Of a stretch of 37,542 bases of DNA, positions 6,534 to 34,685 are shown piece by piece. Made by a program: the position numbers and the translations under genes. The stretch comes from a virus: the IMG/VR virus record IMGVR_UViG_3300031857_000570, positions 1 through 37,542 of that record; one strand, 5' to 3'. Under the pieces are notes generated by a model. That model was not told the origin of the DNA. It worked only from the letters and a program-made list of their open reading frames with translations, and did not search any database. Numbering within the stretch: position 1 is the first letter of the stretch; each line of letters starts with the position of its first letter.

Positions 6534-6537
6534 AAAA

Positions 6538-6867: not shown

Positions 6868-6878
6868 TATAACGTCAA

Positions 6879-12229: not shown

Positions 12230-12230
12230 T

Positions 12231-13457: not shown

Positions 13458-13458
13458 G

Positions 13459-14727: not shown

Positions 14728-14730
14728 ATA
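14723..14730 (+). promoter_or_regulatory. Late promoter-like box (CATAAATA)
   Basis: CATAAATA followed by C overlaps the stop of the third adhesin paralogue and lies 23 bp before the ATG at 14746. It matches TATAAATA at seven of eight positions. Confidence 0.6.
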
Positions 14731-14745
14731 CATATAAAACTCATT

Positions 14746-15063: not shown

Positions 15064-15070
15064 TTTATAG

Positions 15071-15748
15071 ATGAGAAAAGAAGAAGAATTGGAACTGCTT
15101 AAAAAACATCTTTTTAATATTTGTGGTCTTCATAATGAAAAAAATTCTGATTTAAACAGAGCAATAGCAGATGCAAAATCTCTGTTGATGGAATTATATC
15201 CAGAACCAGTTACAGAATGGTCTCAAGAAATTGAATGGAGAGTTTGTCCAGATTTTCCTGATTATGAAGTTTCAAACTATGGTGATGTAAGAAGATGCAA
15301 AGTTTGCACAAGAAATAGACAGTCATTCAAAGGAAAAATTTTAAAACCAAAAATAGATAAAAGAGGATATTATCAATATACATTATCAAAAGATAAAAAA
15401 TTTCATTACTTAACTGGACATAAATTGGTAGCAATTACATATATTGGAATGCCTTTAAATAAAAGTTTTGTAATTGCACATTTGGATGGAAGTAAATCTA
15501 ATAATTTTGTTGCAAATTTAAAATGGGTTAGCAATTCTGAAAATCAATTACACAGAAGAGTTCACGAAGATTTTGTTCCATTTAAGGGACATAATTCTTT
15601 GAGTGTTGAAGAAGTTAAAGATATTAGAAAAAGATTTATGGGAGGTGAATTGCAATCAAATTTAGCATCCAAATATGAGGTTTCTTACGGAGTAATAAAT
15701 AAGATTGTTAATAATGTAACATATATAAGGAGCATTTACTGTGTCTAA
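15071..15748 (+). CDS. HNH homing endonuclease with NUMOD4 domain
   Basis: This 225-aa protein has an unusual acidic N-terminal extension (1-50). A NUMOD4 motif (about 55-103) follows with WRVCPDFPDYEVSNYGDVRR and ILKPKIDKRGYYQYTL. The HNH nuclease core has H117 (GHKLV) and VIAHLDGSKSNNFVANLKW with H137, N144/N145 and N149, then SENQLHR. A C-terminal helix-turn-helix (about 177-221) reads SVEEVKDIRKRFMGG and NLASKYEVSYGVINKIV. Such free-standing enzymes cut intronless alleles and spread their gene into co-infecting phage genomes. Its 3' end contains the Shine-Dalgarno and GTG start of the next fibre gene, with an 8-bp overlap, so it has integrated into the operon without breaking expression. 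Confidence 0.88.
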   Translation: MRKEEELELLKKHLFNICGLHNEKNSDLNRAIADAKSLLMELYPEPVTEWSQEIEWRVCPDFPDYEVSNYGDVRRCKVCTRNRQSFKGKILKPKIDKRGYYQYTLSKDKKFHYLTGHKLVAITYIGMPLNKSFVIAHLDGSKSNNFVANLKWVSNSENQLHRRVHEDFVPFKGHNSLSVEEVKDIRKRFMGGELQSNLASKYEVSYGVINKIVNNVTYIRSIYCV

Positions 15749-17663
15749 TCTCATAGGATCTGGAATTGGGCAAATTCCGACAAATGGGATGTTGGGGAAC
15801 CTTGCGTTCCAGGATAAGGCATATGTAAATGTAGATAAGGTTGGTATTGGAACCACATTTGTTGATAGTGGAACAGCAGGGCAGATATTACAGGTTTATG
15901 GTGGCGGTGCTTATGTAAGTGGTTCTGTAGGTATTGGAACCACAAATCCATTAGACCCTTTAGATGTTGTTGGAGTTATAAGACCTCGTTTAGGTATTCG
16001 TGATTCTTATGGAAACGTAGGTGCTGCTGGGTCAGTATTAGTTTCTACTGGTGCTGGAGTTAGTTGGACAGCTTCTTTTGCTGCTGGATTGCAAGGAAAT
16101 CAAGGCGTTCAAGGACTTCAAGGTTCTGGATCACAAGGTTCACAAGGACTTCAGGGTACTCAAGGAAGACAAGGTGTTCAAGGTCTTCAAGGAGATCAAG
16201 GTATTCAAGGTATTCAAGGTATTCAAGGAACACAAGGTATTCAAGGATCTCAGGGACTTCAAGGTCTCCAAGGTGGTGGAGGGCAAGGTGCTCAAGGACT
16301 TCAAGGACTTCAAGGTTCTGGATCACAAGGTTCACAAGGACTTCAAGGACTTCAAGGTGTTCAGGGTCTTTCTAATCAAGGATCTCAAGGTCTTCAAGGT
16401 GGTGGAGGACAAGGATCTCAAGGTCTTCAGGGTTCTCAAGGTCTTTCTAATCAAGGTTCTCAAGGTTCACAAGGACTTCAGGGTACTCAAGGAAGACAAG
16501 GTATTCAAGGTCTTCAAGGAGATCAAGGTATTCAAGGATCCCAAGGAGCACAAGGTACTCAAGGAAGACAAGGTTCTCAAGGTCTTCAAGGAGATCAAGG
16601 TATTCAGGGTGCTCAAGGAAGACAAGGTACTCAAGGTCTTCAAGGAGATCAAGGACTTCAGGGTACTCAAGGAAGACAAGGACTTCAAGGACTTCAAGGT
16701 ATTCAAGGTCTTTCTAATCAAGGATCTCAAGGTCTTCAGGGTTCTCAAGGTCTCCAAGGTTCTGGATCACAAGGTTCACAAGGACTTCAGGGTACTCAAG
16801 GAAGACAAGGTATTCAAGGTCTTCAAGGAGATCAAGGTATTCAGGGTGCTCAAGGAAGACAAGGTTCTCAAGGTCTTCAGGGACTCCAAGGAACACAAGG
16901 TATTTCAATTCAAGGTCTTCAAGGATCTGCTGGTAGTGGAGGAGTTTCTGCTTGGTCCAGAAAAACTGCAATTTACACTGCAGTCACTGGAGATAGACTT
17001 ATTGCAGATACTTCTGGAGGTGCATTTACAATCACACTTCCAGCAACACCAACAACTGGAAATAGTGTAATTTTTGCTGATGGCGCTGATTGGTTCACTA
17101 CTAATCTAACAGTTGCAAGAAATGGATCTACAATTGAAGGAGTTGCTGATGATTTCGTATTAGATATTAAAGGAATTACTGTTGAATTTGTTTATGACGG
17201 AACGACTTGGGAAGTATTTGCATCAACAGGACCAGCAGGACCTAATGATGTAATCCTTGCTCAAAATGATACTTCAACCACAACATTATATCCTGTGATG
17301 GTTTCTAGTGCTGGTGTTAATGCTACACCAAAAGTTACGACAACCACAAATTACTTATCATTTAATGCAGCAACAGGTCAAATTACTGCTATTGATTTTA
17401 ACTCTGCATCAGATCAATCAATCAAAACAAATGTATCAAAACTAAATAACAGTATAGAAATTTTAAAAACTCTTTCTCCAGTCTCATTTAATTGGACTAA
17501 TTCTAATGAAAAGAGTTATGGTTTAATCGCTCAAGAAGTTGAAAAGATTTTACCAGAACTTGTTTCTGAAACAAATGATATTAAGTCTGTTCGTTACATA
17601 CCATTAATTGCGATGTTGATTGATGCTGTAGTTGATTTAGAAAAAAGAATTACTAACGAATAA
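15741..17663 (+). CDS. Collagen-like tail fibre with Peptidase_S74 self-cleaving chaperone domain
   Basis: This 640-aa protein starts at GTG, 7 bp after AAGGAGC (15727-15733). The N-terminus has VGIGTT modules and VSTGAGVSWTASFAAG like the 1310-aa fibre. A Gly-X-Gln rod with GSGSQG and GGGGQG breaks spans about 116-398. A beta domain follows (VTGDRLIADTSGGAFTITLP, about 415-490). The C-terminus is an intramolecular chaperone: SDQSIKTNVSKLNNSIEILK, SPVSFNW, SYGLIAQEVEKILPELV and SVRYIPLIAMLIDAVVDLEK. S557 and K562 have the five-residue spacing of the S74 Ser-Lys dyad. Family knowledge predicts cleavage just before S557, releasing an 84-aa piece after trimerisation. Confidence 0.87.
   Translation: MSNLIGSGIGQIPTNGMLGNLAFQDKAYVNVDKVGIGTTFVDSGTAGQILQVYGGGAYVSGSVGIGTTNPLDPLDVVGVIRPRLGIRDSYGNVGAAGSVLVSTGAGVSWTASFAAGLQGNQGVQGLQGSGSQGSQGLQGTQGRQGVQGLQGDQGIQGIQGIQGTQGIQGSQGLQGLQGGGGQGAQGLQGLQGSGSQGSQGLQGLQGVQGLSNQGSQGLQGGGGQGSQGLQGSQGLSNQGSQGSQGLQGTQGRQGIQGLQGDQGIQGSQGAQGTQGRQGSQGLQGDQGIQGAQGRQGTQGLQGDQGLQGTQGRQGLQGLQGIQGLSNQGSQGLQGSQGLQGSGSQGSQGLQGTQGRQGIQGLQGDQGIQGAQGRQGSQGLQGLQGTQGISIQGLQGSAGSGGVSAWSRKTAIYTAVTGDRLIADTSGGAFTITLPATPTTGNSVIFADGADWFTTNLTVARNGSTIEGVADDFVLDIKGITVEFVYDGTTWEVFASTGPAGPNDVILAQNDTSTTTLYPVMVSSAGVNATPKVTTTTNYLSFNAATGQITAIDFNSASDQSIKTNVSKLNNSIEILKTLSPVSFNWTNSNEKSYGLIAQEVEKILPELVSETNDIKSVRYIPLIAMLIDAVVDLEKRITNE
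16086..16935 (+). repeat. Collagen-like DNA repeat tract of the S74 fibre
   Basis: Gly-X-Gln coding array with a higher share of Asp, Ile and Ser at X (GGAGATCAAGGTATTCAA words) and breaks coding GSGSQG and GGGGQG. The composite block from GGTTCTGGATCACAAGGTTC through GGTACTCAAGGAAGACAAGG recurs near 16122, 16316 and 16761. Confidence 0.85.
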
Positions 17664-17668
17664 ACAAT

Positions 17669-18457
17669 ATGCCCACTAATCTTTCTACATTTTTAGGTTC
17701 AACATTCATAGGTACTCAAGGAGCCCAAGGTCTTCAAGGATTACAGGGAAGGCAAGGACTTCAAGGTCTTTCTAATCAAGGTTCTCAAGGACTTCAAGGT
17801 CTTTCTAATCAAGGTGTCCAAGGAACTCAAGGACTTCAAGGTCTTTCTAATCAAGGTACTCAAGGACTTCAGGGTCTTTCTAATCAAGGTTCTCAAGGAC
17901 TTCAAGGTCTTTCTAATCAAGGTTCTCAAGGACTTCAAGGTCTTTCTAATCAAGGTTCTCAAGGACTTCAAGGTCTTTCTAATCAAGGTGTCCAAGGAAC
18001 TCAAGGACTTCAAGGTCTTTCTAATCAAGGTACTCAAGGACTTGTTGGACCTATCGGCATAAATTATTGGGAAAAAACTGCTGCAGGTATTCACACTCTC
18101 TCAAAAGTTGGTATAGGAACCACAAATCCAACGGCACTGATTACAGTTAAATCTCAAAGTGTTAATGATTTTGTTGGTTTGTTCTCAGGAACTACTAATA
18201 CTGATTTGGTAAGAATTACTCAAGACGGAACTGGAAATGCTCTAAGAGTTGATGACCAAGCAGGAGGAACAACTCCATTTATTGTTGATAATCTTGGTAA
18301 AGTTGGTATCAATACACTAACCGCAACATCAAATCTTACAGTTTTTGGTAATAGTTTAGTAACTGGAATATCAACATCTCAGCACTTGGATGGAACAGCA
18401 ATTACAACCTTATCTGGTTCGGTGCTTGCATATTCTTATAGAATGACTATGCCCTAA
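17669..18457 (+). CDS. Short collagen-like fibre protein
   Basis: This 262-aa protein has an N-terminal cap of about 14 residues (MPTNLSTFLGSTFI). A rod follows whose dominant unit is GLSNQGSQGLQ, with variants carrying T or V in place of S. It ends GLVGPIGINYWEKTAAGIHT. The C-terminal globular part carries two beta modules, VGIGTTNPTALITVKSQ and VGINTLTATSNLTVFGNS, and ends VLAYSYRMTMP. The VGIGTTNP module also occurs in the 640- and 1310-aa fibres. It lacks the S74 cleavage domain found in its upstream neighbour, from which it is separated by 5 bp. Likely a short trimeric fibre or fibre extension; the ribosome-binding site is weak. Confidence 0.75.
   Translation: MPTNLSTFLGSTFIGTQGAQGLQGLQGRQGLQGLSNQGSQGLQGLSNQGVQGTQGLQGLSNQGTQGLQGLSNQGSQGLQGLSNQGSQGLQGLSNQGSQGLQGLSNQGVQGTQGLQGLSNQGTQGLVGPIGINYWEKTAAGIHTLSKVGIGTTNPTALITVKSQSVNDFVGLFSGTTNTDLVRITQDGTGNALRVDDQAGGTTPFIVDNLGKVGINTLTATSNLTVFGNSLVTGISTSQHLDGTAITTLSGSVLAYSYRMTMP
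17764..18036 (+). repeat. 33-bp tandem repeats coding GLSNQGSQGLQ
   Basis: The unit is GGTCTTTCTAATCAA + GGTTCTCAA + GGACTTCAA, 33 bp, repeated with a few unit variants in which GTC or ACT replaces TCT. The non-triplet GLSNQG break, occasional in other fibres here, is in this gene a regular part of every unit. Confidence 0.85.
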
Positions 18458-22139: not shown

Positions 22140-23114
22140 ATGAACTTTGTTAAACTTGCATTGGAGAATGGTGGAAGTATTCACCCACTTATTATTCCTT
22201 CATTAGAACTAAAAGGTCCAGCAATTACAAATCCTTCCATTTACAACGATAATGGAAAAATTCTTGTAAATCTAAGGAATATTAACTATACTTTATATCA
22301 TTCAGAGAAGAAAAAGTTTGAGCATCATTGGGGACCTTTAGTTTACATTCATCCAGAAAATGATCTCCGGCTTCGCACTTGGAATTATATGTGCGAAATG
22401 GATGAAAATATGCACATTAAAAAATATAATCGCGTTGATACCTCAGATTTTCCAGATAAAGAACTCTGGGAGTTTGTTGGACTAGAGGATGCTCGTATTG
22501 TTCGTTGGGATGGAAAACTTTATATTTGTGGAGTTAGAAGAGACCTTGATACGATTGGTACTGGTCGTATGGAACTCTCTGAAATTGAAATTACTGAAAA
22601 TGGCGTAAAAGAACTTAAGCAATATCGTATTCCAACTCCAGGAGATAACAGTTCTTATTGCGAAAAGAATTGGATGCCCATTCTTGATATGCCTTTCCAT
22701 TTTGTTAAGTGGACAAATGGAACTGAAGTCGTAAAATACGATATTGAAACTGGAACAACAACTCAAGTTGCTCTTACTGAATGGAAAGATTTGGGTTGTA
22801 TTGATCTTCGCGGAGGATCTCAAGTCATTCCATTTGAGGAATATCGTTTCTGTCTTAATCACGAAACGTATTTAACCAAGAGTGAAGCAGGAAGAAAAGA
22901 CGGAACTTATCGCCATCGTTTTATTGTTTGGGATAAGAACTGGGATATTGTAAAAGTTTCCAGGCAGTTCTCATTTATGGAAGCAGAGATTGAGTTTGCT
23001 GTTGGAATGTGCGAGTATGGTGATGATTATCTTATGACTTTTGGTTTTCAAGATAATGCAGCATACCTTTTAAGAGTGTCTCAAAAGTTCGTGAAGGAGT
23101 TTATTTTTGAATGA
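22140..23114 (+). CDS. GH130-like five-bladed beta-propeller protein
   Basis: This 324-aa protein shows features of the GH130 / glycoside-phosphorylase propeller family. They include GLEDARIVRWDGKLYICGVR (114-133) with the ED-A/P-R core, EKNWMPI (175-181), a central RGGSQVIPFEEYRFCLNHET (224-243), and FAVGMCEYGDDYLMTFGFQD (286-305) near the end. The family acts on beta-mannosides and related oligosaccharides, often as phosphorylases; many distant members sit beside glycosyltransferases and have unknown activity. As first gene of the glycan cassette it may trim or transfer sugars. It overlaps the next gene by ATGA. Whether the full catalytic set is present cannot be judged by eye. Confidence 0.65.
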   Translation: MNFVKLALENGGSIHPLIIPSLELKGPAITNPSIYNDNGKILVNLRNINYTLYHSEKKKFEHHWGPLVYIHPENDLRLRTWNYMCEMDENMHIKKYNRVDTSDFPDKELWEFVGLEDARIVRWDGKLYICGVRRDLDTIGTGRMELSEIEITENGVKELKQYRIPTPGDNSSYCEKNWMPILDMPFHFVKWTNGTEVVKYDIETGTTTQVALTEWKDLGCIDLRGGSQVIPFEEYRFCLNHETYLTKSEAGRKDGTYRHRFIVWDKNWDIVKVSRQFSFMEAEIEFAVGMCEYGDDYLMTFGFQDNAAYLLRVSQKFVKEFIFE

Positions 23115-23731
23115 TTATACAAATTCAAGACATAATTCAAAAATACAATATGAACATTACAGGAGTAATTCATATTGGAGCACACTATGGAGAAGAAGTT
23201 CCTAATTACATTCAAAGTGGAATAAAGGATATTATTTTATTTGAACCTCTAAGAGAAAATTTTGAAATCCTAAAAAGAAATATATCTCACTTTACATATG
23301 CGAACATCAGAAAAAATCAAGTTGCATTAGGAAATTCTAATAAAACTATTTCAATGAACCTTTCCAGTAATGGTTTAGAAAGTAGTTCAATTCTAAAACC
23401 AAAACTTCATTTGGAATTATATCCAGACATTACTTTTGATAGAACTGAAGAAATTGAAATGCAAAAACTTGATGATTATAATTGTAAAAAATGCAATTTT
23501 ATCAATATAGATGTCCAAGGTTATGAACTTGAAGTACTAAAAGGTGCAGAAGAAACTCTTCAACATATTGATTATATTTACTGCGAAGTGAATGAAAGTG
23601 AAATTTATGAAGGTAATGCTTTTATTCATCAAATAGATGATTATCTAACCAAGTATAATATGAAAAGAGTTGAAACTTCTTGGTGGTATGACGCTGGTTG
23701 GGGAGATGCTCTTTATATCAAAATGAAATGA
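23111..23731 (+). CDS. FkbM-family SAM-dependent methyltransferase
   Basis: This 206-aa protein has SAM motif I as VIHIGAHYGEE (19-29), then an acidic loop, FEPLREN (44-50). The FkbM hallmark INIDVQGYELEVLKGAEETL is at 131-150. YIYCEVNESEIYEG follows, and the end has WWYDAGWGDALYIK. Family members O-methylate sugars or small molecules and are frequent in capsule, LPS and phage glycan clusters. Length matches a single-domain FkbM protein. It is coupled to both neighbours by 4-bp overlaps. Substrate is unknown; methylation of a sugar made by this cassette is the likely role. Confidence 0.88.
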   Translation: MIIQIQDIIQKYNMNITGVIHIGAHYGEEVPNYIQSGIKDIILFEPLRENFEILKRNISHFTYANIRKNQVALGNSNKTISMNLSSNGLESSSILKPKLHLELYPDITFDRTEEIEMQKLDDYNCKKCNFINIDVQGYELEVLKGAEETLQHIDYIYCEVNESEIYEGNAFIHQIDDYLTKYNMKRVETSWWYDAGWGDALYIKMK

Positions 23732-24477
23732 AAATCGCAGTATGTATCTCTGGAGGGGTTAGATATCCTCATCTTGGATTGCAAAGTATTCAAAAAATTA
23801 TTCCAAATGAATATGTAAAAGTTTTTATTCATACTTGGGAAATAAAGAATAGAAATTCTTTCATTCAAACTCTTTCTGGATTGCAGTATAAAGAGAAGGA
23901 TAAAATTGTTGAGACTGATCTTTCTCTTCTACAGAATTATAATTTTGAAAAGATTTTTATTGAAAACTATGAAGATAAAGAAGAACAATTCAAACAACTT
24001 TTCTCAGAACTAAATTTCGTTCCTTGGGATGAGGCAATAGATGAACCAAGATTTGATGTTGGTCCTATCAGTATGCACTATTCAATATTTAAAGCAAATG
24101 AGTTGAAAAGTGAATATGAAAAAGTAAACAATATTACCTTTGATTGGGTTATTCGTATGAGAACTGATAGTGATTTTAAATACGAAACACTTAATATGAA
24201 TTCTTTAATTGAAGATTTGAATATACCATCAGGTGAAGATTGGGCAGAAAATGCGATCAATGATCAATTTTCTATAGGAAGATCAAATGTTATGGATCTT
24301 TATTCAAATCTTTATAATAATTTGCATAAAACTCAGACAACAAAGTATTATCCCGAAAATTTATTATTTACACATTTGAATAATTTTGGATTGACTCCAA
24401 ATAGAATTGATTTTCCAGTAAGAATTAATAATGGAATAGATTTTAGAAAAGTTTGGTATCCTCATTTGGTTGAATAA
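23728..24477 (+). CDS. Putative glycosyltransferase (R-x-R-x-D type)
   Basis: The ATG at 23728 overlaps the previous stop (ATGA) and gives 249 aa beginning MKIAVCISGGVRYPHLGLQS. An in-frame upstream start at 23698 would only add residues read from inside the methyltransferase gene. Motifs are VFIHTWEIKNR (32-42), DVGPISMHYSIFKANELK (110-127) and FDWVIRMRTDSDF (138-150). The R-x-R-T-D strand followed by a second Asp looks like the DXD-type nucleotide-sugar site of a GT-A fold in uncharacterised glycosyltransferases of capsule clusters. The family is not one I can name with certainty. Location between FkbM and GT11 supports glycan assembly. Confidence 0.65.
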   Translation: MKIAVCISGGVRYPHLGLQSIQKIIPNEYVKVFIHTWEIKNRNSFIQTLSGLQYKEKDKIVETDLSLLQNYNFEKIFIENYEDKEEQFKQLFSELNFVPWDEAIDEPRFDVGPISMHYSIFKANELKSEYEKVNNITFDWVIRMRTDSDFKYETLNMNSLIEDLNIPSGEDWAENAINDQFSIGRSNVMDLYSNLYNNLHKTQTTKYYPENLLFTHLNNFGLTPNRIDFPVRINNGIDFRKVWYPHLVE

Positions 24478-24478
24478 A

Positions 24479-25225
24479 GTGATTTCATTTAATAATCTTG
24501 GACATATGGGACGTTTAGGAAATCAGATGTTTCAATATGCATCTCTACGTGGAATAGCATCCCATAATGGATATTCATACTCAATTCCTAAAGACACTTC
24601 TCTAACAGAATGTTTCAAAATATCGGAAACTTTACATAATCAAAATTATGAGAGTATAAGTGTAGATAGATTTGAGTTTGATAAAAATTTTTTTGATACT
24701 TGCCCAGATAATGTAGATTTATTAGGATATTTTCAAAGCGAAAAATATTTCAAACATATAGAAGATAAAATTAGACAAGATTTTACTTTTCATGATAAAA
24801 TAGATAGAATGTGTTCTCATTACAGAAAGTATATCTTTCCAAATACTGAACTCATATCTCTTCACATAAGAAGAACTGATTACATTACTGATGCAAACTT
24901 TGAATGCCTTTCTTTGGAATACTATAATAATGCTTTAGAGTTATTGCCAAATCTTCCTGTAATGATATTCAGCGATGATCCAAATTGGTGTAAGGATCAA
25001 TTCAATCATGAAAGATTTAAAATTTCATTATCAAATGATCCTTATATTGATCTCTGCTTAATGTCTATGTGTGATTATCATATCATCGCAAACAGTTCTT
25101 TCAGTTGGTGGGGTTCTTGGTTAGCAAAAAGTAAGAAAACAATTGCTCCTAGAAAATGGTTTTGTGGAGAGTTTTCAAATTGGAACACTCAAGACTTATA
25201 TCTTTCTGATTGGTCTATTCTTTAA
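24479..25225 (+). CDS. Alpha-1,2-fucosyltransferase-like glycosyltransferase (GT11)
   Basis: A GTG start at 24479 gives 248 aa reading MISFNNLGHMGRLGNQMFQY, the usual GT11 N-terminus. A TTG at 24470 would add three residues and overlap the previous gene. GT11 signatures are GRLGNQMFQYA (11-21), GYFQSEKYF (83-91), SLHIRRTDY (127-135, the HxRR donor-binding motif) and IANSSFSWWGSWLA (203-216). Length is slightly under the usual 280-300 aa but all motifs are present. The family transfers fucose from GDP-fucose to galactose or related acceptors on LPS or capsule. GDP-fucose would have to come from the host, as no synthesis gene is seen here. Confidence 0.88.
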   Translation: MISFNNLGHMGRLGNQMFQYASLRGIASHNGYSYSIPKDTSLTECFKISETLHNQNYESISVDRFEFDKNFFDTCPDNVDLLGYFQSEKYFKHIEDKIRQDFTFHDKIDRMCSHYRKYIFPNTELISLHIRRTDYITDANFECLSLEYYNNALELLPNLPVMIFSDDPNWCKDQFNHERFKISLSNDPYIDLCLMSMCDYHIIANSSFSWWGSWLAKSKKTIAPRKWFCGEFSNWNTQDLYLSDWSIL

Positions 25226-25252: not shown

Positions 25253-25999
25253 ATGGATTTTACAACTGACTTACATAATAAAGCAATTGTTGATACTGGG
25301 TATGTATATTGGGGAAGAGAAAATCATTCCTATGTATATACTGGATATGTTGATAAGTTTATGGAAAAAATTCACGGTCTTGGTTGGGGACCAAAAGTTT
25401 ATCTTGATATTGGATCTAGGGATTTGATGCAAACTATTGAAGTTGCTCAATATCATCCGGGAACTAGATTTATTGCGTTTGAACCTGTTCCTTGGCAATA
25501 TCAAGTTTGTTATGAAAGAAGTTTAGAATGGGATAATGTTGAGGTTTATAATTATGCCATTTCGGATGAAGAAGGATATGCAGATTTTTGGGAAATGGAT
25601 ACAAATACTGGAGGATCATCTCTTTTAGAACCCATTGATGTTCCTGGAAGTAACAATGTAAGTAAGAAAATTACCGTTGAATGTAAAAGACTTGATAATT
25701 TTTTAAAATCTTTGGGTATAGAATCTGTTGATTGTTTATGGATGGACACTCAAGGAACAGAGTTAAAAGTATTAAAAAGTTTGGGAAATTATATAGACAA
25801 TGTTTTGTTTGTGCATACTGAAGCTGCCCCAAAACCTTACTATAAGGGACATATTCTAAAAGATGAACTAGAAGAATTTCTTCTCAAAAAAGGATTTGAC
25901 CTAGAATTCCATACAAATGGACCTCATCCATATGATGAAGGTGATATAATTGCATCAAAACCAAAACTTGTTGAATTTTTATTAAAAAAACAATCATGA
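25253..25999 (+). CDS. FkbM-family SAM-dependent methyltransferase (second)
   Basis: This 248-aa protein has SAM motif I VYLDIGSRDLMQ (49-60), FEPVPWQ (76-82) and a variable insert, GGSSLLEPIDVPGSNNV. The FkbM signature VDCLWMDTQGTELKVLKSLG (159-178) is followed by VLFVHTEAAPKPYYKGH. It shares the family but little sequence with the methyltransferase at 23111, so they probably modify different positions. The N-terminal 45 residues (YWGRENHSYVYTGYVDKFME) look like an added cap. It is separated from the fucosyltransferase by 27 bp and overlaps the next gene by ATGA. Confidence 0.85.
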   Translation: MDFTTDLHNKAIVDTGYVYWGRENHSYVYTGYVDKFMEKIHGLGWGPKVYLDIGSRDLMQTIEVAQYHPGTRFIAFEPVPWQYQVCYERSLEWDNVEVYNYAISDEEGYADFWEMDTNTGGSSLLEPIDVPGSNNVSKKITVECKRLDNFLKSLGIESVDCLWMDTQGTELKVLKSLGNYIDNVLFVHTEAAPKPYYKGHILKDELEEFLLKKGFDLEFHTNGPHPYDEGDIIASKPKLVEFLLKKQS

Positions 26000-27609
26000 A
26001 AGTCTTATACGTTTATAATTTTGCTTATGCAGACTATCAAAGCGATAGCATTTATCATGGTCTGATTGATAGTGGAGTTGAGGTTTATGAGACTGCATAT
26101 CCAGCATATATGCTACAAGGATATGAAAACGCCCATTATCTTCACGGAAAAGGATTTACAATTCATGGAAAGTTAAATCATACTCCGAGAGTTGATGAAC
26201 CAGAAGTCATCAAAGAAAAAATTAAAAATAGATTTTATGATCTGGTAATTTATGGATGTGTTTATACACACTTTATGCTTCCTCAAAGACAATCTTTGGA
26301 TTATTTGCAGGAAGTAATTCAATCTTATTCTAAAGATAAAGTTCACTTTGTAGATGGTTGTGATGACATTCCAAACTTTGCATATGGTTTAGGATTGCAT
26401 AAGTACGGAACAGTTTGGAAAACAAATGGCGCCGATGATAAGCACGGCAAGTCTATTTCATTTGCAATTCCAGAAAGTCAGTTGCTTGAATATAAACCAC
26501 AAAAGGAAAAGTTCTTTGCTGACATTATTCCCGGGGTACAAGAAACTTACCGTTTTACTGATGAAAATGAATATTATCACGACTATGCGATTTCTTATTA
26601 TGGTAAGACTTGGAGAAAGGGTCAGTGGAATTGTATGAGGCATCTTGAAATTCTTGCAAACCGATGTATTCCTTATTTCCCTGGATTAGAAAATTGTCCG
26701 GAATGGATTATGAAGAATTTTCCAAAAGAAATTATTTTGGAAACAAACAAGTATGCCGAACAAGGTAAAATTCATCCACAATATGAAGAACTAAATGAGA
26801 TTCTCTTTGAGTATACTAAGCAAAATCTAACAACGAAAAAACTTGCTGAAAGATTTTTAAATTCTTCAAAAGAAATAAATGAATATTCGCTACCCAGTAT
26901 ACAAAATATTTCTCCCTTAAATCCATATATTTCTAAAAAAGGTAATTCTAATCACCAATATGCAGAAATAATTGAAAGAGCATTTCAAAAGGCTTGCTTG
27001 GATAAGCAAGATGTTCCTGACTGGATTTTATATTATGGTGGAGCATCCGGAACTAGATATCGTATTATGATAAACGATATAATTAAAAATATTCCAGATG
27101 CCAGATATCTTGAGATTGGAATGTGGACTGGTTCTACTTTATTTGCTGCTCTATCAAATAATAAAGTTAAGGCAACTGGAATTGATAATTGGACGCAGGG
27201 TTTTTATGGTGATGTAAAAAATCAATTCTATCAGTTTCTTCAGGGTTGTATTACCTATGATAATTCAATTGCTCTTTACGAAACCGAATTCCAGAAGATT
27301 GATTATACCCAAATAGGAAAGCATAATGTTTTTCTTTATGATGGACCCCATGACGAACAAGAACAATATGACGGTGTTAGTCTTCCTTATGATGCTTTAG
27401 ATGACACATTTATCTTAGTCGTTGATGATTGGAATTGGCCTTCTCCTAGAAATGGAACGTTTCGGGCATTAAATGATAAAAATATTGAGATTGTTTATTC
27501 AATTGAGATAAGAACAACTTCCAACGATTATTTTCCTCCCGAAGAATATCACGGTCAAAGTCATCATTGGCATGATGGTTATCTGATTGCTGTTTGCCAA
27601 AAAAGATAA
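25996..27609 (+). CDS. Fusion: GT-B-like glycosyltransferase domain + class I SAM methyltransferase
   Basis: This protein is 537 aa. The N-terminal part (1-about 290) begins MKVLYVYNFAYADYQSDSIY, with VIYGCVYTHFMLPQR (84-98), and a CgeB/exostosin-like end YYGKTWRKGQWNCMRHLEIL then ANRCIPYFPG (201-230). This pattern is typical of GT-B proteins. The C-terminal part (about 320-537) has motif I ARYLEIGMWTGSTLFAAL (369-386), GIDNW, VFLYDGPHDEQEQYDGV (445-461) and VVDDWNWP, typical of Methyltransf_24-like enzymes with a metal-binding DG/DDW pattern. One chain may add and methylate the same sugar. It overlaps its predecessor by ATGA and is 3 bp from the WavE-type gene. The methyltransferase call is stronger than the glycosyltransferase call. 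Confidence 0.72.
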   Translation: MKVLYVYNFAYADYQSDSIYHGLIDSGVEVYETAYPAYMLQGYENAHYLHGKGFTIHGKLNHTPRVDEPEVIKEKIKNRFYDLVIYGCVYTHFMLPQRQSLDYLQEVIQSYSKDKVHFVDGCDDIPNFAYGLGLHKYGTVWKTNGADDKHGKSISFAIPESQLLEYKPQKEKFFADIIPGVQETYRFTDENEYYHDYAISYYGKTWRKGQWNCMRHLEILANRCIPYFPGLENCPEWIMKNFPKEIILETNKYAEQGKIHPQYEELNEILFEYTKQNLTTKKLAERFLNSSKEINEYSLPSIQNISPLNPYISKKGNSNHQYAEIIERAFQKACLDKQDVPDWILYYGGASGTRYRIMINDIIKNIPDARYLEIGMWTGSTLFAALSNNKVKATGIDNWTQGFYGDVKNQFYQFLQGCITYDNSIALYETEFQKIDYTQIGKHNVFLYDGPHDEQEQYDGVSLPYDALDDTFILVVDDWNWPSPRNGTFRALNDKNIEIVYSIEIRTTSNDYFPPEEYHGQSHHWHDGYLIAVCQKR

Positions 27610-27612
27610 GTT

Positions 27613-28386
27613 ATGTACGATGATATTTCATTAGTTATTCAGGGTCCAGCATCAGATAAAGAAAAGTTGGACTTTGTTGATGCTCTTCCTTATTATAAAA
27701 CTTTGTTTTCTGAAATTATATTATCAACTTATACTGAACACTTAATATCTAATTGGCAACTTCTAAAAGTGTGTGAAGAAAATGATATTAAAATAGTTCA
27801 TAAAACTGTTGATATTAACAAATCATTATTAGATCATCCTACTAGCCCTTGCATTTATTATCAGACATATACAAGTTTGAATGGGTTTAAATTTTCATCA
27901 AAAAAATATACTATTAAACATAGAATAGATGAAAGGTATTCTAATTTGCATCTTTTAATTGATAAATTTTTGACTAGTAATGAGAAGTGGGTTTCGGGTG
28001 GAATGCTATTTGCCCCAAAGGTATGGAGATCTTTTTGTGCAGGAGATCATTTGTTTATTGCTCAAACAGAAAAACTAATTAAAACATTTGAATTGACAGA
28101 AGAACATCTAAGTAATAAATCTTTTTTGGAAGAAGGTCCAGAAATTACATATACAAAAAATTTTCTAAGAATTAATAATGAAGATCCTTCAGATGAAAAT
28201 CATGACGAATTGATGAGAAAATATTTTGATTTTGTCCCCGATAAGTATATGTTTCCTTTTATAATCAGATCTAATACTAATGAAGAAGGAAATAAAGTTT
28301 GGAGGACTCTTGAAGAATATGGTTCACTTAGATCTCAATATGAAACACTAGATGACATTTTTTATAGTCCATATTTACCTTGGTAA
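27613..28386 (+). CDS. WavE-type LPS core biosynthesis protein
   Basis: This 257-aa protein opens with DISLVIQGPASDKEK (4-18), the WavE-family start. SEIILSTYTEHL (33-44) and YTIKHRIDERYSNL (99-112, with R104, D106, E107 and R108) follow. GMLFAPKVWRSFCAGDHLFI (130-149) matches the family's 'FaGDhlfig' segment. PF07507 proteins are linked to LPS core synthesis in Vibrio and occur in other surface-polysaccharide loci. They are probably GT-A glycosyltransferases, although the reaction is poorly defined. It is flanked closely by the methyltransferase fusion and the nucleotidyltransferase. Confidence 0.78.
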   Translation: MYDDISLVIQGPASDKEKLDFVDALPYYKTLFSEIILSTYTEHLISNWQLLKVCEENDIKIVHKTVDINKSLLDHPTSPCIYYQTYTSLNGFKFSSKKYTIKHRIDERYSNLHLLIDKFLTSNEKWVSGGMLFAPKVWRSFCAGDHLFIAQTEKLIKTFELTEEHLSNKSFLEEGPEITYTKNFLRINNEDPSDENHDELMRKYFDFVPDKYMFPFIIRSNTNEEGNKVWRTLEEYGSLRSQYETLDDIFYSPYLPW

Positions 28387-28394
28387 AAATTAAT

Positions 28395-29108
28395 ATGAAT
28401 GTCCTTATTCCTATGGCGGGTGAGGGAACAAGATTCCCAAGAGATACCTACAAAATTCCAAAACCCTTAATTGATATTAGAGGAGTTCCAATGATCCAGA
28501 GAGCAATTGAATCTCTTGGTCTTATTGGAACTTATCATTTTGTCATTCGTAAAGACAGTTATTACGATCAAGTATGCACCTTACTACACAAAACTTTATC
28601 AGATCCAAAAATCATTAGTGTAGAAGAAACTACAGAAGGACCGGCATCAAGTTCTTTATTGTTCAAAGATTTCATCAATACTGAAGAAGAACTTGTAATT
28701 GCAAACTGTGATCAAATTATGTGGTGGGATGCAGACCTTTTTCTCACAAATGCAAGATATTATAAGTATGATGGTTTAATTGTAACTTATAGCACAACAA
28801 CCCCAAAAAATAGTTACGCTAGAATTGATAGAAATGGATTTGTCCAAGAGATTAGAGAAAAGGAAGTGATTAGTGATATTTCTTTAAATGGAATTCATTA
28901 TTGGAGGAAAGGTAGATACTTCGTTGAAAGTACAGAATCTATGATGAGAATGAATGATCGAGCTCCGAATGGAGAGTTTTATGTTGGTCCTACATACAAT
29001 CATATGATCCAACAAGGACTTAAAGTTGGAATTCATCATATTCCTAACTGGCAACACAATCCAGTTGGTGTTCCTGAGGATCTTGAAACTTTTTTGAAAA
29101 AATTATGA
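28395..29108 (+). CDS. Sugar-phosphate nucleotidyltransferase-like protein
   Basis: The ATG at 28395 gives 237 aa beginning MNVLIPMAGEGTRFPRDTYK. A TTG at 28380 overlapping the previous gene is less likely. The activating loop GEGTRF, KPLIDIRGVPMIQRAIESLG, the metal-site NCDQIMWW and SLNGIHYWRKGRYF are standard for NTP_transferase enzymes that make NDP-sugars or CDP-alcohols from NTP and a phosphorylated substrate. The C-terminus IPNWQHNPVGVPEDLETFLK is the usual lid. The sugar is unknown. It is coupled to the cupin gene by ATGA and so directly linked with the cupin/RuBisCO-like pair. Confidence 0.82.
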   Translation: MNVLIPMAGEGTRFPRDTYKIPKPLIDIRGVPMIQRAIESLGLIGTYHFVIRKDSYYDQVCTLLHKTLSDPKIISVEETTEGPASSSLLFKDFINTEEELVIANCDQIMWWDADLFLTNARYYKYDGLIVTYSTTTPKNSYARIDRNGFVQEIREKEVISDISLNGIHYWRKGRYFVESTESMMRMNDRAPNGEFYVGPTYNHMIQQGLKVGIHHIPNWQHNPVGVPEDLETFLKKL

Positions 29109-29440
29109 ATATTACAAAAATAACTGATTATGTCAGAGGGTGGTTCATTGGAAACTTTGAACCATCTCTTTTAAAAACTTCTGCTTTTGAAGTTGGTGTT
29201 CTTACACATAAGAAAGGAGAATACTGGGCTCCACATTATCATAAGGAAAGTATAGAATATAATGTTCTCATAACTGGCAAAATGATCGTCCAGGGAAAGG
29301 AGTTAAATAGTGGTGATGTATTTGTATTCGACAAAGGAGAAGTTGCTGACCCAATTTTTCTTGAAGATTGTACATTAGTTGTAGTTAAAACACCATCTAT
29401 TCCTTCTGATAAATTTGAGGTTGAGAATGAAATTCTTTAG
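29105..29440 (+). CDS. Small cupin
   Basis: This 111-aa single-domain cupin has motif 1, GEYWAPHYHKESIEYNVLITG, spanning about 38-58, with H44, H46 and E51 as likely metal ligands. Motif 2 is weaker (GDVFVFDKGEVADPIF). Cupins of this size in sugar clusters are isomerases, epimerases or small binding proteins acting on NDP-sugars or sugar acids. Motif 2 lacks an evident histidine, so the metal site may be incomplete. It overlaps the nucleotidyltransferase by 4 bp and the RuBisCO-like gene by 14 bp, the tightest packing in the cassette, which suggests the three products serve one step series. Confidence 0.75.
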   Translation: MNITKITDYVRGWFIGNFEPSLLKTSAFEVGVLTHKKGEYWAPHYHKESIEYNVLITGKMIVQGKELNSGDVFVFDKGEVADPIFLEDCTLVVVKTPSIPSDKFEVENEIL

Positions 29441-30665
29441 AGAACTTACTGAATATGAAAGAGATCGTTGCGTAGTTGCAACATATTACATCGAATCATA
29501 TGAAAATATTGGAACATTAAGGGATGCTGCCTGGAATCTTGCCATTGGGCAAAGTGTCGGCAACCCTAAAGTAAGAAATCGTTGGGAGAGTGATGAACTC
29601 TTTGAACTAGCATCTTGTGTCATCTATGCTGATGAACAAGAACTTTCTCAACAGACAAAGGGACAAGTTAAAATTGGTTTCCCCAAAGTTAATACTGACT
29701 GGGAAGGTGATGGCATTTCACATCTTCTTTGCCAACTGATGGGTGGGCAATTGGATATTGATGTGTTCAAAGTCTGTCGTCTTCAGAAATTGGAGTTTCC
29801 TGCTGATGTAGAAGCACAATTCCTTGGACCCAAGAATGGTATTGATGGGATTCGTAAGTTTGTCAATCGTTATGACAAACCACTTTCTGGTGCGATTGTA
29901 AAACCCAAGACAGGTATTTCACCACAAACTCTTTCTGAGATGGTGAAGGAACTTCTTGATGGTGGTGTAGATTTCATCAAGGAAGATGAAATTCTTTCTA
30001 ATCCTTCCTTCTGCCGTCTTGAAGATCGTGTAGAACTCATTTCAAATATCGTAAACAACTGTGGTCGTAATGTCATTTATACTTTCTGTATTAATGGTGA
30101 TCACCATACTATTCTTGATCGTGCTAAATTTGTTGCTGACAATGGTGGGAATGGTATTCATATTAATTTTTGGTCTGGTCTTGGGGTTTATAACTCTGTA
30201 AGAAAGATGGACCTGCCTCTGTTCATTCACTATCAGAAGAGTGGTGATAAGATCCTGACTGATAAGAGACACGCATTTGGAATAGATTGGGATGTTCTCT
30301 GCGACCTTGCTGGTCTGTGTGGTGTTGATACCATCCATGCAGGAATGTGGGGTGGTTATCTGAGTGATGATGAGAATGAACTTCGTCAAACGATGTCAAC
30401 ACTTCACAAACGGAATGTTCTCCCAGCATTGAGCTGTGGGATGCATCCAGGCATCGTCAACACCACTGCAGAGAAGTTCGGCACGGACTTCCTTGCTAAC
30501 TGTGGAGGTGCCATCCACGGGCATCCAGAGGGCACTCTGTCGGGTGCTCTGGCAATGAGACAATCTATTGATAAAACTCCTGGTCCAGAATTTCGTGCTG
30601 CCATTGATAAGTGGGGTTATGAAACTGGTGGTGGTTCTCTTCCTGAGTGGGTATTAGATTTTTGA
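29427..30665 (+). CDS. RuBisCO-like protein (form IV-type, probably not a carboxylase)
   Basis: The ATG at 29427 follows GAGG by 7 nt and gives 412 aa, full length for RuBisCO-like proteins. Conserved segments are GAIVKPKTGIS (155-165; K159 and K161 match K175/K177 of plant RbcL) and GGVDFIKEDE (179-188; K185, D187 and E188 match K201, D203 and E204). TIHAG (302-306; H304 = H327), PALSCGMH (S336 = S379) and CGGAIHGHPEG (359-369) are also present. By hand alignment several catalytic residues are replaced: Q270 at H294, K271 at R295, Y311 at K334, N46 at T65 and H99 at N123. This suggests an enolase, isomerase or transcarboxylase-type reaction on a sugar acid, as known for RuBisCO-like proteins, not CO2 fixation. 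Its 3' half is GC-richer than its neighbours. Confidence 0.88.
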   Translation: MKFFRELTEYERDRCVVATYYIESYENIGTLRDAAWNLAIGQSVGNPKVRNRWESDELFELASCVIYADEQELSQQTKGQVKIGFPKVNTDWEGDGISHLLCQLMGGQLDIDVFKVCRLQKLEFPADVEAQFLGPKNGIDGIRKFVNRYDKPLSGAIVKPKTGISPQTLSEMVKELLDGGVDFIKEDEILSNPSFCRLEDRVELISNIVNNCGRNVIYTFCINGDHHTILDRAKFVADNGGNGIHINFWSGLGVYNSVRKMDLPLFIHYQKSGDKILTDKRHAFGIDWDVLCDLAGLCGVDTIHAGMWGGYLSDDENELRQTMSTLHKRNVLPALSCGMHPGIVNTTAEKFGTDFLANCGGAIHGHPEGTLSGALAMRQSIDKTPGPEFRAAIDKWGYETGGGSLPEWVLDF

Positions 30666-30690: not shown

Positions 30691-31851
30691 ATGAATTTTT
30701 CTGTAGACAATTATACCAGATGGAAAGAAGATCTGATAAAAAATATTCGATATAATGATTATAGGGATGATCTTGATTGGAATGGTGGAGAGTTTCCAGA
30801 AATACCAATTAAAAATGTTGATCTTAGGCATTCAAACCATGGATATACTATTACTCAGAGCGAGTGTAATTTGAATAATATTAGAGATTACTTTTTTAAA
30901 ATCCGAGATCAGTGCAAATGTATTCTTGAGATTGGAGTTGATTGTAATGCAACCGCAACTGAAAGAACATCTACAAGAATTTTCTTGGACAATAAGTTAG
31001 ATGAAACTATCTACATTGGACTTGATCTTAATGATAAGAGTTACTTAAATGATGAAAGTAAAAATATTTTTACTTTCCAAGCAGACTCTTCTGATACTGA
31101 ATCTGTTATGAATTTCATTCAATCAAAGGGAATTTCTGAGATAGATTTTATTTTTATAGATGGTTGGCACAGTATTAACCAAGTTATGAAAGATTGGGAA
31201 TACACCAAATACCTTTCTGACTTTGGTATTGTTGGATTTCATGATACTGCATCTCATCCAGGTCCTCACTCATTTATAAATGCTTTAGACAAAACAAAGT
31301 GGAATATAGTTGAAAATCCATGCTCAAATAACCAAAATGATTGGGGAGTTGGGTTTGCCTGGAGATGTAAAAAGAAAATACAAATCATTTCCCATAGAGG
31401 TAATCTTAACGGACCAAATCCATCAAGAGAAAATAGTCCAGAGTATATTGATGAAGCAATTGCAGCAGGATTTGATGTTGAAATTGATGTCAGATGTGAA
31501 GATCATAAGTTTTATCTTGGTCACGATGGACCTCAATATGAAATTCCTATGACTTGGTTATGGAAAAGGAAAGATAAACTTTGGATTCATTGTAAAGATC
31601 TGAGATCATTGGATGTTCTCTCTAGTAGTCCAGTTGATTTTCACTACTTTTGGCACGATATAGATAGATACACACTCACCAGTAAAGGTATTGGTTGGGT
31701 TTTAGTTGGTCAGTTTCCATTCAAAAAATCAATCGTAGTTCTTCCAGAATCTATTCATTATTATGATAAGTATGAGGGGAACTATGATAGAATATTAGAA
31801 ACGATGGGAATTTGTACCGATAAACCATTATTTTATAAAAATGAGTTATGA
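30691..31851 (+). CDS. Fusion: class I SAM methyltransferase + GDPD-like phosphodiesterase domain
   Basis: This 386-aa protein has a good ribosome-binding site, AGGAGT, 7 bp before ATG. Residues about 55-225 form a methyltransferase: CILEIGVD (77-84), YIGLDLNDK (108-116), IDFIFIDGWHSINQVMKDWE (151-170) and GIVGFHDT (179-186). Residues 230-386 form a GDPD-like TIM-barrel. Its features are IISHRGNLNGP (H235, R236), GFDVEIDVRC (E264, D266), YLGHDGPQYEI (H278), WIHCKDLRSLDVL (K302) and HYFWHDIDRYTLTSKG. The GDPD family cleaves glycerophosphodiesters; this short subfamily is common in phages and surface-sugar loci. The fusion may act on a glycerol-phosphate-decorated glycan, an inference. It overlaps the next gene by ATGA. 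Confidence 0.8.
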   Translation: MNFSVDNYTRWKEDLIKNIRYNDYRDDLDWNGGEFPEIPIKNVDLRHSNHGYTITQSECNLNNIRDYFFKIRDQCKCILEIGVDCNATATERTSTRIFLDNKLDETIYIGLDLNDKSYLNDESKNIFTFQADSSDTESVMNFIQSKGISEIDFIFIDGWHSINQVMKDWEYTKYLSDFGIVGFHDTASHPGPHSFINALDKTKWNIVENPCSNNQNDWGVGFAWRCKKKIQIISHRGNLNGPNPSRENSPEYIDEAIAAGFDVEIDVRCEDHKFYLGHDGPQYEIPMTWLWKRKDKLWIHCKDLRSLDVLSSSPVDFHYFWHDIDRYTLTSKGIGWVLVGQFPFKKSIVVLPESIHYYDKYEGNYDRILETMGICTDKPLFYKNEL

Positions 31852-34685
31852 GCATTTCTGTAATTTGTGCGTGCAAAAATCGCAATTCCCCTCTTCACAT
31901 ATCGTTAAATTCTTGGTTAAATTTTAAAGAAATTACTGAGATTATTATAGTTGATTGGAGTTCTGATGAACCTTTAGGATATCTAACTAAACTTGATCCA
32001 CGGATTAAAATTGTAAGAGTTTCAGATAAAAAATATTTTAATCAACCACAACCTTTAAACCTTGCTGCAAGTATTGCGACTGGTGATTATATTCTTAAAC
32101 TTGATACTGATTATATAACTAATCCATATTTCAATTTTATTGAAAGATATTTTCCTACAGATAATTCTTTCACTTCAGGAGTTCATAATATCAAAAGTCC
32201 AGAATACTATGACGAAGAAACTGGTCTTTATATGATCGACAAATCTAGTATGAGTGATGCTGATTTGCAGGAATATTTCAACTCTTATAGCCCATACTTT
32301 AAGTATCTTACTGGATTTTTATTTGTTAGTAGAGAGAACTTTAATAAAGTTGGTGGATATAATGAAAATCTTGGAAAATACTATGCATTTGAGGATAGTG
32401 AGATTTATAAGAGATTGGAAAATCTTGGATTAACTCACAACAAAATGGATTATGATTATAATTTAATTCATATTCCACACCCAGATGTTAAGAGAGTTGA
32501 AAACTTTGAGGGTTATGATGAAAAAGATAGAGAATGGATAAATTCAATTCAATATGATCCAGATAGATGGCAAGCCGAATACTTCATTTCTCAATCACAT
32601 GTTAAACAAAATGTAGGAATGATTGGAGAAATTGATTATACATATGTCAATTCAAAGACTAAATGGGATGTTATTAGAGTAGATGAACAAAATTATTTTG
32701 CAGAAGATCTAAAAGTGGAAAATAAGTTAGATGGATTTTCAAGTGTTTATTATGTAAGTCTTGAAGAATGTGGGAATAGAAGAAGAAATCTGGAATTTGA
32801 ATTTGATAAGTATAATATCCAACCAAAAGCAATCATATCAAAAAGATTTTCAGAATGCAGTGATATTATTACAGGAAAATATGTTTATCAGTTAAATGAT
32901 GGAACAAAGGGATGTTGCATATCTCATCTTAAAGCAATTAAAGATTGGTATGAAAATACTGATGAAGACTATGGATTTTTCTGTGAGGATGATTTAAGTC
33001 TAGAAACAGTTGAATATTGGAATTTTACTTGGCAACAATTTATAGAAAGTATTCCAGAAGATGCAGATTGCGTTCAGTTACTTACAATCCGTAGTGAGTT
33101 TGATACATTTGAAATTCGTGAGAGATATTGGGATGATTGGGGAGCAACAGCATATATTATGACTAGAGATTATGCTAAAAAGATAATTGATACTTATGTC
33201 AAAGAAGATTCATATCATTTAGAAATTCCAAATCAAGACGTAATGCCTTTAATAGAAAATATTCTGTTTGCAAGTGTTGGAAAAACATATACTTACCCAA
33301 TATTTGTTGAAAATATTGATTTTAAATCCACTTTTGTTGGAAATGATGATGATGTAAGTGATGGTCAAAAAACAAATCATAAGAAGTCAAGAGAGATTGT
33401 TTTAAATTATTGGAAAAATAAAAATATAGTAGAAAAGACGGAACTTGAAGTCCTTTTAACGGAATATTCTTGCGATACTGAAAATCCGGAACATAATTTT
33501 AGTCTTGGTATTTGGTATGAAAATGAAGGACACACTGCCCCAGCTCTTTCATACTATTTAAGATGTGCAGAAAGAGCATATGAATCTAATTCAGATTTAG
33601 CATATGAAGCCCTCATTCGGGGTTCTTATTGCTACGAGAAGCAGGGAACAAGAGATGGAAGTGCAAGATCAATGCTCTGGCAAGCACAAGCATTTAGACC
33701 AGATAGACCAGAGTCACACTTTTTATTGTCAAGATTTGCAGAGAGAAGAGAATGGTGGCAAGATTGTTATATGAATGCAGATTTGGCACTTAGATATTGC
33801 AATTTTGACAATCAACCTCTTCGCACTAATGTTGAATATCCAGGGCAATATGGACTTTTATACTTAAAATCAATTGCTGCTTGGTGGTGGGGGAAGGGAA
33901 AAGAAACTAGACTTCTCCTACAAGAAATAAAAAATAATCATCAAGTTAGATCTGAAGATTTTGATTTAATTCAAAATCGCTTGATGGAATTAGCTACTGG
34001 ATATATTCCAGAATCTGAATTAAAGTACACTAAGAATACTGGTCAAGAGTTAAGATTTAAATTTAATGATTGTGAAAATATAGAGAGAAATTATTCGCAA
34101 GCATTTCAAGATTTATTTGTATTGACTGCTTTAGATGGAAAGAAAAATGGAACTTATCTTGAAATAGGAGCACAAGAACCATTTTATCAAAATAATACTG
34201 CTCTTTTAGAAACTCAATTTGAGTGGAAAGGTGTATCTATAGAAATACGTCAAGATTTGTGTGAAATGTTTTCTCAACAAAGAAAAAACACAATATTATG
34301 TCAGGATGCTACAAAAATAAATTATCTTAACTTATTGAACAATTTTAAGTATGGAAATATAATTGATTATCTTCAAGTGGATTGTGAGCCATCTAAAACT
34401 ACATTTGAAATCTTATTAATGATTCCATTTGATGAATATCAATTCAGAATTATTACTTATGAGCACGATTATTATGTTGATTTAACAAATTCATATAGAG
34501 ACAAATCTAGAGAATACTTATTGTCAAAAGGATATAAACTTCTTGTTTCTAACGTCGCACTAAATGAATGGAGTCCATTTGAAGATTGGTGGTATCATCC
34601 AGATCTTGTTGATCCTGCCATTGTAGAACAAGTAAAAAATATATCCGACATTACAGATATAAGGCACTATATGATTGAACGCTAA
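31848..34685 (+). CDS. Four-domain glycan enzyme: GT2 + GT25 + TPR-like + SAM methyltransferase
   Basis: This protein is 945 aa. Residues 1-250 are a GT2 glycosyltransferase (MSISVICACKNRN, IIIVDWSSDEP, DYILKLDTDY with D86-x-D88, YAFEDSEIYKRL). Residues about 296-525 are a GT25-type domain (SSVYYVSLEECGNRRRNLEF, KGCCISHLKAIKDW, DYGFFCEDDLSLE with E380-D-D382, DDWGATAYIMTRDYAKKIID). Residues about 545-715 are helical, TPR-like repeats (NPEHNFSLGIWYENEGHTAP, SHFLLSRFAERREWWQDCYM). Residues about 748-920 are an FkbM/Methyltransf-like domain (NGTYLEIGAQEPFY, DYLQVDCEPS). Two transferases, a scaffold and a methyltransferase in one chain could assemble and cap one repeat unit. It is last in the cassette and is followed by a strong hairpin. 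Confidence 0.82.
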   Translation: MSISVICACKNRNSPLHISLNSWLNFKEITEIIIVDWSSDEPLGYLTKLDPRIKIVRVSDKKYFNQPQPLNLAASIATGDYILKLDTDYITNPYFNFIERYFPTDNSFTSGVHNIKSPEYYDEETGLYMIDKSSMSDADLQEYFNSYSPYFKYLTGFLFVSRENFNKVGGYNENLGKYYAFEDSEIYKRLENLGLTHNKMDYDYNLIHIPHPDVKRVENFEGYDEKDREWINSIQYDPDRWQAEYFISQSHVKQNVGMIGEIDYTYVNSKTKWDVIRVDEQNYFAEDLKVENKLDGFSSVYYVSLEECGNRRRNLEFEFDKYNIQPKAIISKRFSECSDIITGKYVYQLNDGTKGCCISHLKAIKDWYENTDEDYGFFCEDDLSLETVEYWNFTWQQFIESIPEDADCVQLLTIRSEFDTFEIRERYWDDWGATAYIMTRDYAKKIIDTYVKEDSYHLEIPNQDVMPLIENILFASVGKTYTYPIFVENIDFKSTFVGNDDDVSDGQKTNHKKSREIVLNYWKNKNIVEKTELEVLLTEYSCDTENPEHNFSLGIWYENEGHTAPALSYYLRCAERAYESNSDLAYEALIRGSYCYEKQGTRDGSARSMLWQAQAFRPDRPESHFLLSRFAERREWWQDCYMNADLALRYCNFDNQPLRTNVEYPGQYGLLYLKSIAAWWWGKGKETRLLLQEIKNNHQVRSEDFDLIQNRLMELATGYIPESELKYTKNTGQELRFKFNDCENIERNYSQAFQDLFVLTALDGKKNGTYLEIGAQEPFYQNNTALLETQFEWKGVSIEIRQDLCEMFSQQRKNTILCQDATKINYLNLLNNFKYGNIIDYLQVDCEPSKTTFEILLMIPFDEYQFRIITYEHDYYVDLTNSYRDKSREYLLSKGYKLLVSNVALNEWSPFEDWWYHPDLVDPAIVEQVKNISDITDIRHYMIER

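Follow-up and report, generated by a model that had tools for sequence, protein, structure and literature searches.

The stretch of DNA analysed here, referred to as the window, comprises 37,542 nucleotides of a virus (IMG/VR record IMGVR_UViG_3300031857_000570, positions 1 to 37,542). It carries a gene for a RuBisCO-like protein (RLP) within a glycan-related cassette, the genes of which are as follows.

23111-23731, plus strand: FkbM-type methyltransferase
23698-24477, plus strand: DUF7796 protein, which recurs in such cassettes
24470-25225, plus strand: glycosyltransferase family 11 (fucosyltransferase type)
25253-25999, plus strand: FkbM-type methyltransferase
25996-27609, plus strand: cassette protein without Pfam match; phrog_1458 matches its C-terminal half
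27613-28386, plus strand: cassette protein without Pfam match
28380-29108, plus strand: sugar-phosphate nucleotidyltransferase (NT); ATG start at 28395; NTP_transferase match at 1.1e-7; phrog_3980
29105-29440, plus strand: small cupin of a 110-aa family (phrog_24762) with HxHx4E motif
29427-30665, plus strand: RLP, 412 aa, assigned by RuBisCO_large match, alignment and predicted fold
30691-31374, plus strand: methyltransferase-like N-terminal half of a 386-aa ORF (Methyltransf_24, below the curated cutoff)
31375-31851, plus strand: miniature glycerophosphodiesterase (GDPD) domain (mini-GDPD), 158 aa, the C-terminal half of the same ORF; HRG, EN, ExD, GHD and HxK retained
31848-34685, plus strand: multidomain glycosyltransferase, 945 aa (GT2/GT7C, GT25-like)

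The first-pass annotation placed the RLP directly behind a nucleotidyltransferase and a cupin, and this arrangement is correct: the NTP_transferase match and the HxHx4E motif identify the two genes, and the cupin gene overlaps that of the NT by 4 bases and that of the RLP by 14 bases. The family profile of the NT matches 4evw at 6.6e-31. The remainder of the cassette consists mainly of glycosyltransferases and FkbM methyltransferases, in agreement with its earlier description as a glycan cassette. The 158-residue model of the mini-GDPD has a pLDDT of 94.2 and a VIA Z of up to 11.4 (to GDPD 1o1z), and nearly all of its best VIA rows belong to the GDPD/PLD family. Its barrel is shorter than that of 1o1z (158 versus 226 residues). 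H7, R8, N20, E36, D38, G49 and H50 are invariant in the mini-GDPD alignment and E19 is nearly so, and the fold together with the catalytic HR, EN, ExD and GH places window positions 31375-31851 in the GDPD family.

Elsewhere in the window, a 2OG-Fe(II) oxygenase gene (982-1641) neighbours several fibre-like genes with collagen repeats (GxQ; 3192-18457), one of which ends in a Peptidase_S74 chaperone. Hydroxylation of the fibre proteins by this oxygenase is possible. An ORF between the fibre genes (15071-15748) appears by eye to encode a homing endonuclease of the HNH/NUMOD type.

The RLP gene is full length, as first annotated, with an open and complete ORF encoding 412 amino acids. RuBisCO_large (Pfam) matches the protein at 9.9e-43. 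The best NCBIfam model is that of type III RuBisCO (199.5 bits versus a cutoff of 497), and the nearest solved sequences are form III enzymes (2cwx from Pyrococcus horikoshii; 8dht, type III). Orthology to MtnW or OiaX was rejected because the scores lie beneath the curated cutoffs (MtnW, NF007095 167.5/409 bits and TIGR03332 125.8/513.6 bits; OiaX, 151.6/700 bits). An AlphaFold2 model built from 20 relatives has a mean pLDDT of 90.8 and displays the complete RuBisCO fold, with N-terminal domain and TIM barrel, as expected of a member of the RuBisCO superfamily. VIA Z scores to RuBisCO chains range from 37 to 42, with 2cwx at 42.3 (2.4 A, 26% identity, 381 residues). Among the best 50 matches to BFVD viral structures, no RuBisCO fold was found, only TIM barrels with TMq <0.4. 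The gene is under strong purifying selection, with dN/dS of 0.03-0.08 against the close relatives with estimable dS (n=9). Of the 20 aligned sequences, only those of the window's subgroup and that of L056, a contig of 518 kb, end in the C-terminal tail GGS(L/M)PEWVL(D/E)F (window 30627-30662).

In the phylogeny, one branch parts all phage and cellular relatives of the RLP, hereafter the clade, from forms I, II and III and from the Photo, MtnW-type (including reference L143, typed as such) and OiaX/NonPhoto groups. IQ-TREE supports this branch at 100/100, and FastTree, run on a second alignment, at 1.0. The earlier proposal that the protein is not a carbon-fixing enzyme would be challenged by placement inside a form II/III carboxylase clade, and both trees put the clade outside forms I-III with full support. 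The groups sampled in the trees are those just listed, to which DeepYkr, IV-GOS (the name of an environmental RLP clade) and AMC references do not belong, and the clade could therefore prove identical to an environmental group that already has a name.

Residues were mapped on a MAFFT alignment of 109 homologues, in which 66 clade members were compared with 41 other homologues sampled. Most of the residue assignments made by hand in the first-pass annotation hold in this alignment. K159 and K161 correspond to K175 and K177, and K185, D187 and E188 to K201, D203 and E204; Q270 stands at H294, K271 at R295, Y311 at K334 and N46 at T65. The equivalent of N123 had been misassigned to H99, and its column instead holds G107, within the motif MGGQxDI. 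Further replacements are G41 at E60 and C337 at G380, and S336, G338, G360, G361 and H304 retain S379, G381, G403, G404 and H327. The metal and carbamylation residues and both the Lys175 and Lys177 equivalents are invariant in 66/66 clade members, so that the catalytic Lys, Asp and Glu are common to members from phages, bacteria and archaea; the carbamylatable Lys201 with Asp203, Glu204 and Lys175 is thus present as in the RuBisCO superfamily at large. K177 is retained in the clade and absent from the other RLPs sampled. K334, H294, N123, T65 and E60, the residues expected of the carboxylating forms I-III, are all replaced in 66/66 members. The H294 column holds Gln in every clade member and His in 41/41 of the other homologues, and Tyr occupies the K334 column throughout the clade; C at G380 and GNP at T65 are likewise invariant. 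Form III RuBisCO (2cwx, 8dht) shares with the RLP the metal site, K175/K177 and the top sequence and fold scores, whereas the RLP has no equivalent of K334, H294, R295, N123, T65 or E60 and comes nowhere near the cutoff of the form III model. With the metal residues kept, and with Lys334, which binds CO2, replaced along with further residues needed for carboxylation, the metal-enolate core is intact and the carboxylation set is gone. A RuBisCO fold, an incomplete set of carboxylase residues and a position outside forms I-III make the protein a form IV RuBisCO homologue, i.e. a RuBisCO-like protein.

Far from being a one-off, the window RLP belongs to a family that is widespread in phages and occurs rarely in cells. 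Relatives are encoded by at least 301 IMG/VR stretches as counted by profile scan of the contigs (single-sequence scans gave 225 and 228), and no clade member was found in the 50,697 reference phage records of INPHARED. On plasmids, no match reached 60% identity, and those with an annotation among the matches listed were mostly OiaX. The gene for the T4-type major capsid protein Gp23 is present on 10/22 long viral contigs with an RLP, among them the 518-kb contig and one of 111 kb with an RLP at 97% identity to that of the window; psbA is present on 2/22, of which the 111-kb contig is one. Gp23 and psbA on related contigs indicate that the closest relatives of the window RLP include T4-like cyanophages, and we infer the window's own host from these relatives only. 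On the cyanophage contig L002 (G424), psbA was matched in two pieces (109183-109755 and 110640-110975) about 0.9 kb apart, which suggests an intron or insertion.

In cells the clade is rare, with 23 loci found by pattern search of 84,980 species genomes. The RLP was present in 1/398 Pseudomonadota (the seed), in 4/22 genomes of one Legionella genus sample and in 2/147 of a SAR11 family sample, and among the cellular members are those of SAR11, Legionella, Azospirillum and Elusimicrobia. Certain SAG/MAG contigs with an RLP may be phage, as the RLP of L082 equals that of viral L045 in the tree. Contamination as a general explanation was rejected, since the Legionella, Azospirillum and Elusimicrobia loci and the long SAR11 contigs look truly cellular.

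Gene linkage was counted in 43 non-redundant viral and 23 cellular loci, with three other RuBisCO homologues as controls. NT accompanies the RLP in 42/43 viral loci, mini-GDPD in 36/43 and cupin in 34/43. The cellular loci contain NT in 20/23 (the three without it being short contigs or having the gene near a contig end), GDPD in 15/23 and cupin in 7/23; cupin is thus absent from about one-fifth of the viral and most of the cellular loci. None of NT, cupin or GDPD was found beside the three control homologues. In every locus except two, the partner genes run in the same direction as the RLP gene. The order nucleotidyltransferase-cupin-RLP, which the first-pass annotation proposed to seek in other phages, is present in most viral loci, the commonest phage order being NT-cupin-RLP-GDPD. 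Azospirillum and Elusimicrobia have GDPD-RLP-cupin-NT, SAR11 has GDPD-NT-RLP-NT, a Sphingobacteriales MAG has RLP-cupin-NT and Legionella has RLP-NT. That membership is kept while order is reshuffled argues for a joint function of NT, cupin, RLP and GDPD. In SAR11 loci (e.g. L095:7219-7959), two NT paralogues flank the RLP, and the first, to judge by its loss of the usual GxGxR signature, may be inactive or altered.

The wider neighbourhood of cellular loci gives hints about the product. In Azospirillum the four-gene set is followed by sulfate-activation genes (PAPS-reductase-domain, CysD/NodP-type, and APS-kinase, NodQ-type; L155:6771-9568), which suggests a sulfated glycan. LicD adjoins RLP and NT in 4/4 RLP-bearing Legionella genomes and adjoins a HAD-NT fusion in 4/6 other Legionella genomes. 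Enzymes of the LicD family use CDP-linked donors for the transfer of phospho-groups, and their position beside RLP and NT in Legionella is a hint of a CDP-activated product. LicD was rejected as a universal transferase, since it was not seen in 22/23 viral records.

Cultured cyanophages without an RLP provide a second view of the NT. In the six such regions examined the same NT is present, with mini-GDPD in 5/6 and cupin in 1/6. The RLP-adjacent NTs are nearly all stand-alone proteins of about 235-260 aa, and domain swaps, drawn from few genomes, occur in the RLP-less phages. In S-SKS1 the NT is fused to the DHBP synthase RibB (5e-65), the substrate of which is ribulose 5-phosphate, and in SynMITS9220M01 to LacAB_RpiB, a ribose/galactose-phosphate isomerase domain of RpiB type (4e-33). 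RpiB-type domains act on hexose phosphates too. The NT of S-CAM9, DSL-LC03 and B23 is fused to a HAD phosphatase, a partner that is uninformative about a pentulose. S-SM2 has two fused NT domains, with a class II aldolase and phosphoheptose isomerases annotated nearby. The S-SKS1 fusion (HQ633071.1 38066-39493; L328:5001-6428) is annotated solely as DHBP synthase, a warning for riboflavin auxiliary-gene calls.

The suggestion that the RLP carries out a sugar-phosphate reaction and not carbon fixation is supported by the residues replaced clade-wide, by the tree position and by the finding of no phosphoribulokinase (PRK) in 23 viral records. We give about an even chance to the RLP being a non-carboxylating, Mg2+-dependent enolase/isomerase of a small phosphorylated ketose, the product of which is activated by NT for a surface glycan. 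What is observed is the fold, the clade, the residue signature, the four-gene linkage, purifying selection, and the fusion of NT to ribulose-5-phosphate-type enzymes in RLP-less genomes. We infer the substrate, the reaction, the nucleotide, the cupin and GDPD steps and the identity of the glycan, as follows. The RLP, with carbamylated Lys185 and Mg2+, would enolise a pentulose-type phosphate, most probably ribulose 5-phosphate or a closely related compound. The cupin would work on the same intermediate, possibly before activation by NT, and NT would convert the product of the RLP pathway to an NDP-linked (perhaps CDP-linked) compound. The activated compound would enter a surface glycan of the virion or host through the cassette glycosyltransferases or, in Legionella, through LicD, and the mini-GDPD would have a phosphodiester within this pathway as its target. 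The evidence is stronger for non-carboxylating enolate chemistry feeding NT than for the precise identity of the RLP substrate, and the substrate sugar of NT could be unrelated to the RLP product. For the clade as a whole, dominated by phages, the fuller reading, in which a ribulose-5-phosphate-like substrate becomes a sugar phosphate and NT then activates this product for a surface glycan with phosphodiester or glycosidic linkage, is held slightly less firmly, at just under an even chance.

Other readings of the RLP must be weighed against this enolase/isomerase. OiaX/NonPhoto RLPs have the same fold and serve sugar-acid phosphate metabolism, as in apiose breakdown (PMC6302742), and OiaX is among the NCBIfam matches of the window RLP. 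An OiaX-like enzyme that decarboxylates or transcarboxylates a branched keto-sugar-acid phosphate, making a rare glycan sugar, is nevertheless unlikely: the match reaches 152 bits against a 700-bit cutoff, and OiaX/NonPhoto form their own clan, which keeps K334 and H294 and loses K177, the reverse of the phage clade. An acid-sugar dehydrogenase or kinase was also not seen recurring beside the RLP. Somewhat less probable again is a role in sulfur salvage, as a DK-MTP-1-P enolase (MtnW) or as a cupin-assisted methylthioribulose-1-P isomerase of the MTA-isoprenoid shunt. RLP and cupin are a known pair in that shunt, and the DeepYkr RLP gene of R. rubrum and R. palustris adjoins a cupin gene as in the window (PMC5893883); moreover MtnW (2zvi, 2oem) shares the RLP fold (Z 41-42) and the metal site, and the fit of 2zvi to the RLP model (Z 41.8) comes close to that of form III. 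The window cupin, however, belongs to a different setting, a 110-aa family paired with a nucleotidyltransferase, and the MtnW models remain far under their cutoffs. The clade has K177 and Q for H294, the MtnW-type reference has the reverse, and Q in this column is found in no other RLP sampled. No methionine-salvage genes were identified in the annotated neighbourhoods, where it is a sugar nucleotidyltransferase that constantly accompanies the RLP. The loss of several substrate-contact residues might point to a RuBisCO fold put to structural or regulatory use with no catalysis; this is highly improbable given the invariant catalytic residues, the low dN/dS and the constant pairing with enzymes. 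Least probable of all is a true carboxylase, encoded as an auxiliary gene to fix carbon in the course of infection; this candidate was rejected on residues, tree and the finding of no PRK in 23 viral records together with the form III score and the glycan-related cassette, despite the retained metal site and lysines, the psbA on two contigs and the listing of viral rbcL under carbon fixation in PMC8506154 and PMC12607003.

Related sequences may already have been published. One paper counts viral rbcL among the auxiliary genes of carbon fixation (PMC8506154), a landfill study grouped viral RbcL with "RbcL-like" proteins, a call also made in an IMG/VR sample (PMC12607003), and the GOS study of 2007 described 65 RuBisCO homologues joining no known form (PMC1821046). 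By their descriptions in the accessible text of these papers, they resemble the clade as viral or marine environmental homologues, some outside known forms, and differ in that the glycan cassette, the clade signature and cellular relatives are absent there; some of these viral RbcL or GOS sequences may belong to the phage RLP clade. In the open-access literature, no description of the phage RLP clade, its residues or its cassette was found.

The main known carriers of the clade are tailed phages, some with photosystem genes, and the clade may account for a class of viral "rbcL" calls taken as carbon fixation. NT, cupin, RLP and mini-GDPD constitute a directly testable enzyme set. To our knowledge, the RuBisCO homologues with an assigned role function in carbon fixation, nucleoside and methionine salvage, and sugar-acid breakdown, and we know of none in nucleotide-sugar biosynthesis. 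If the proposed function is true, anabolic nucleotide-sugar synthesis would be added to the roles of the RuBisCO family.
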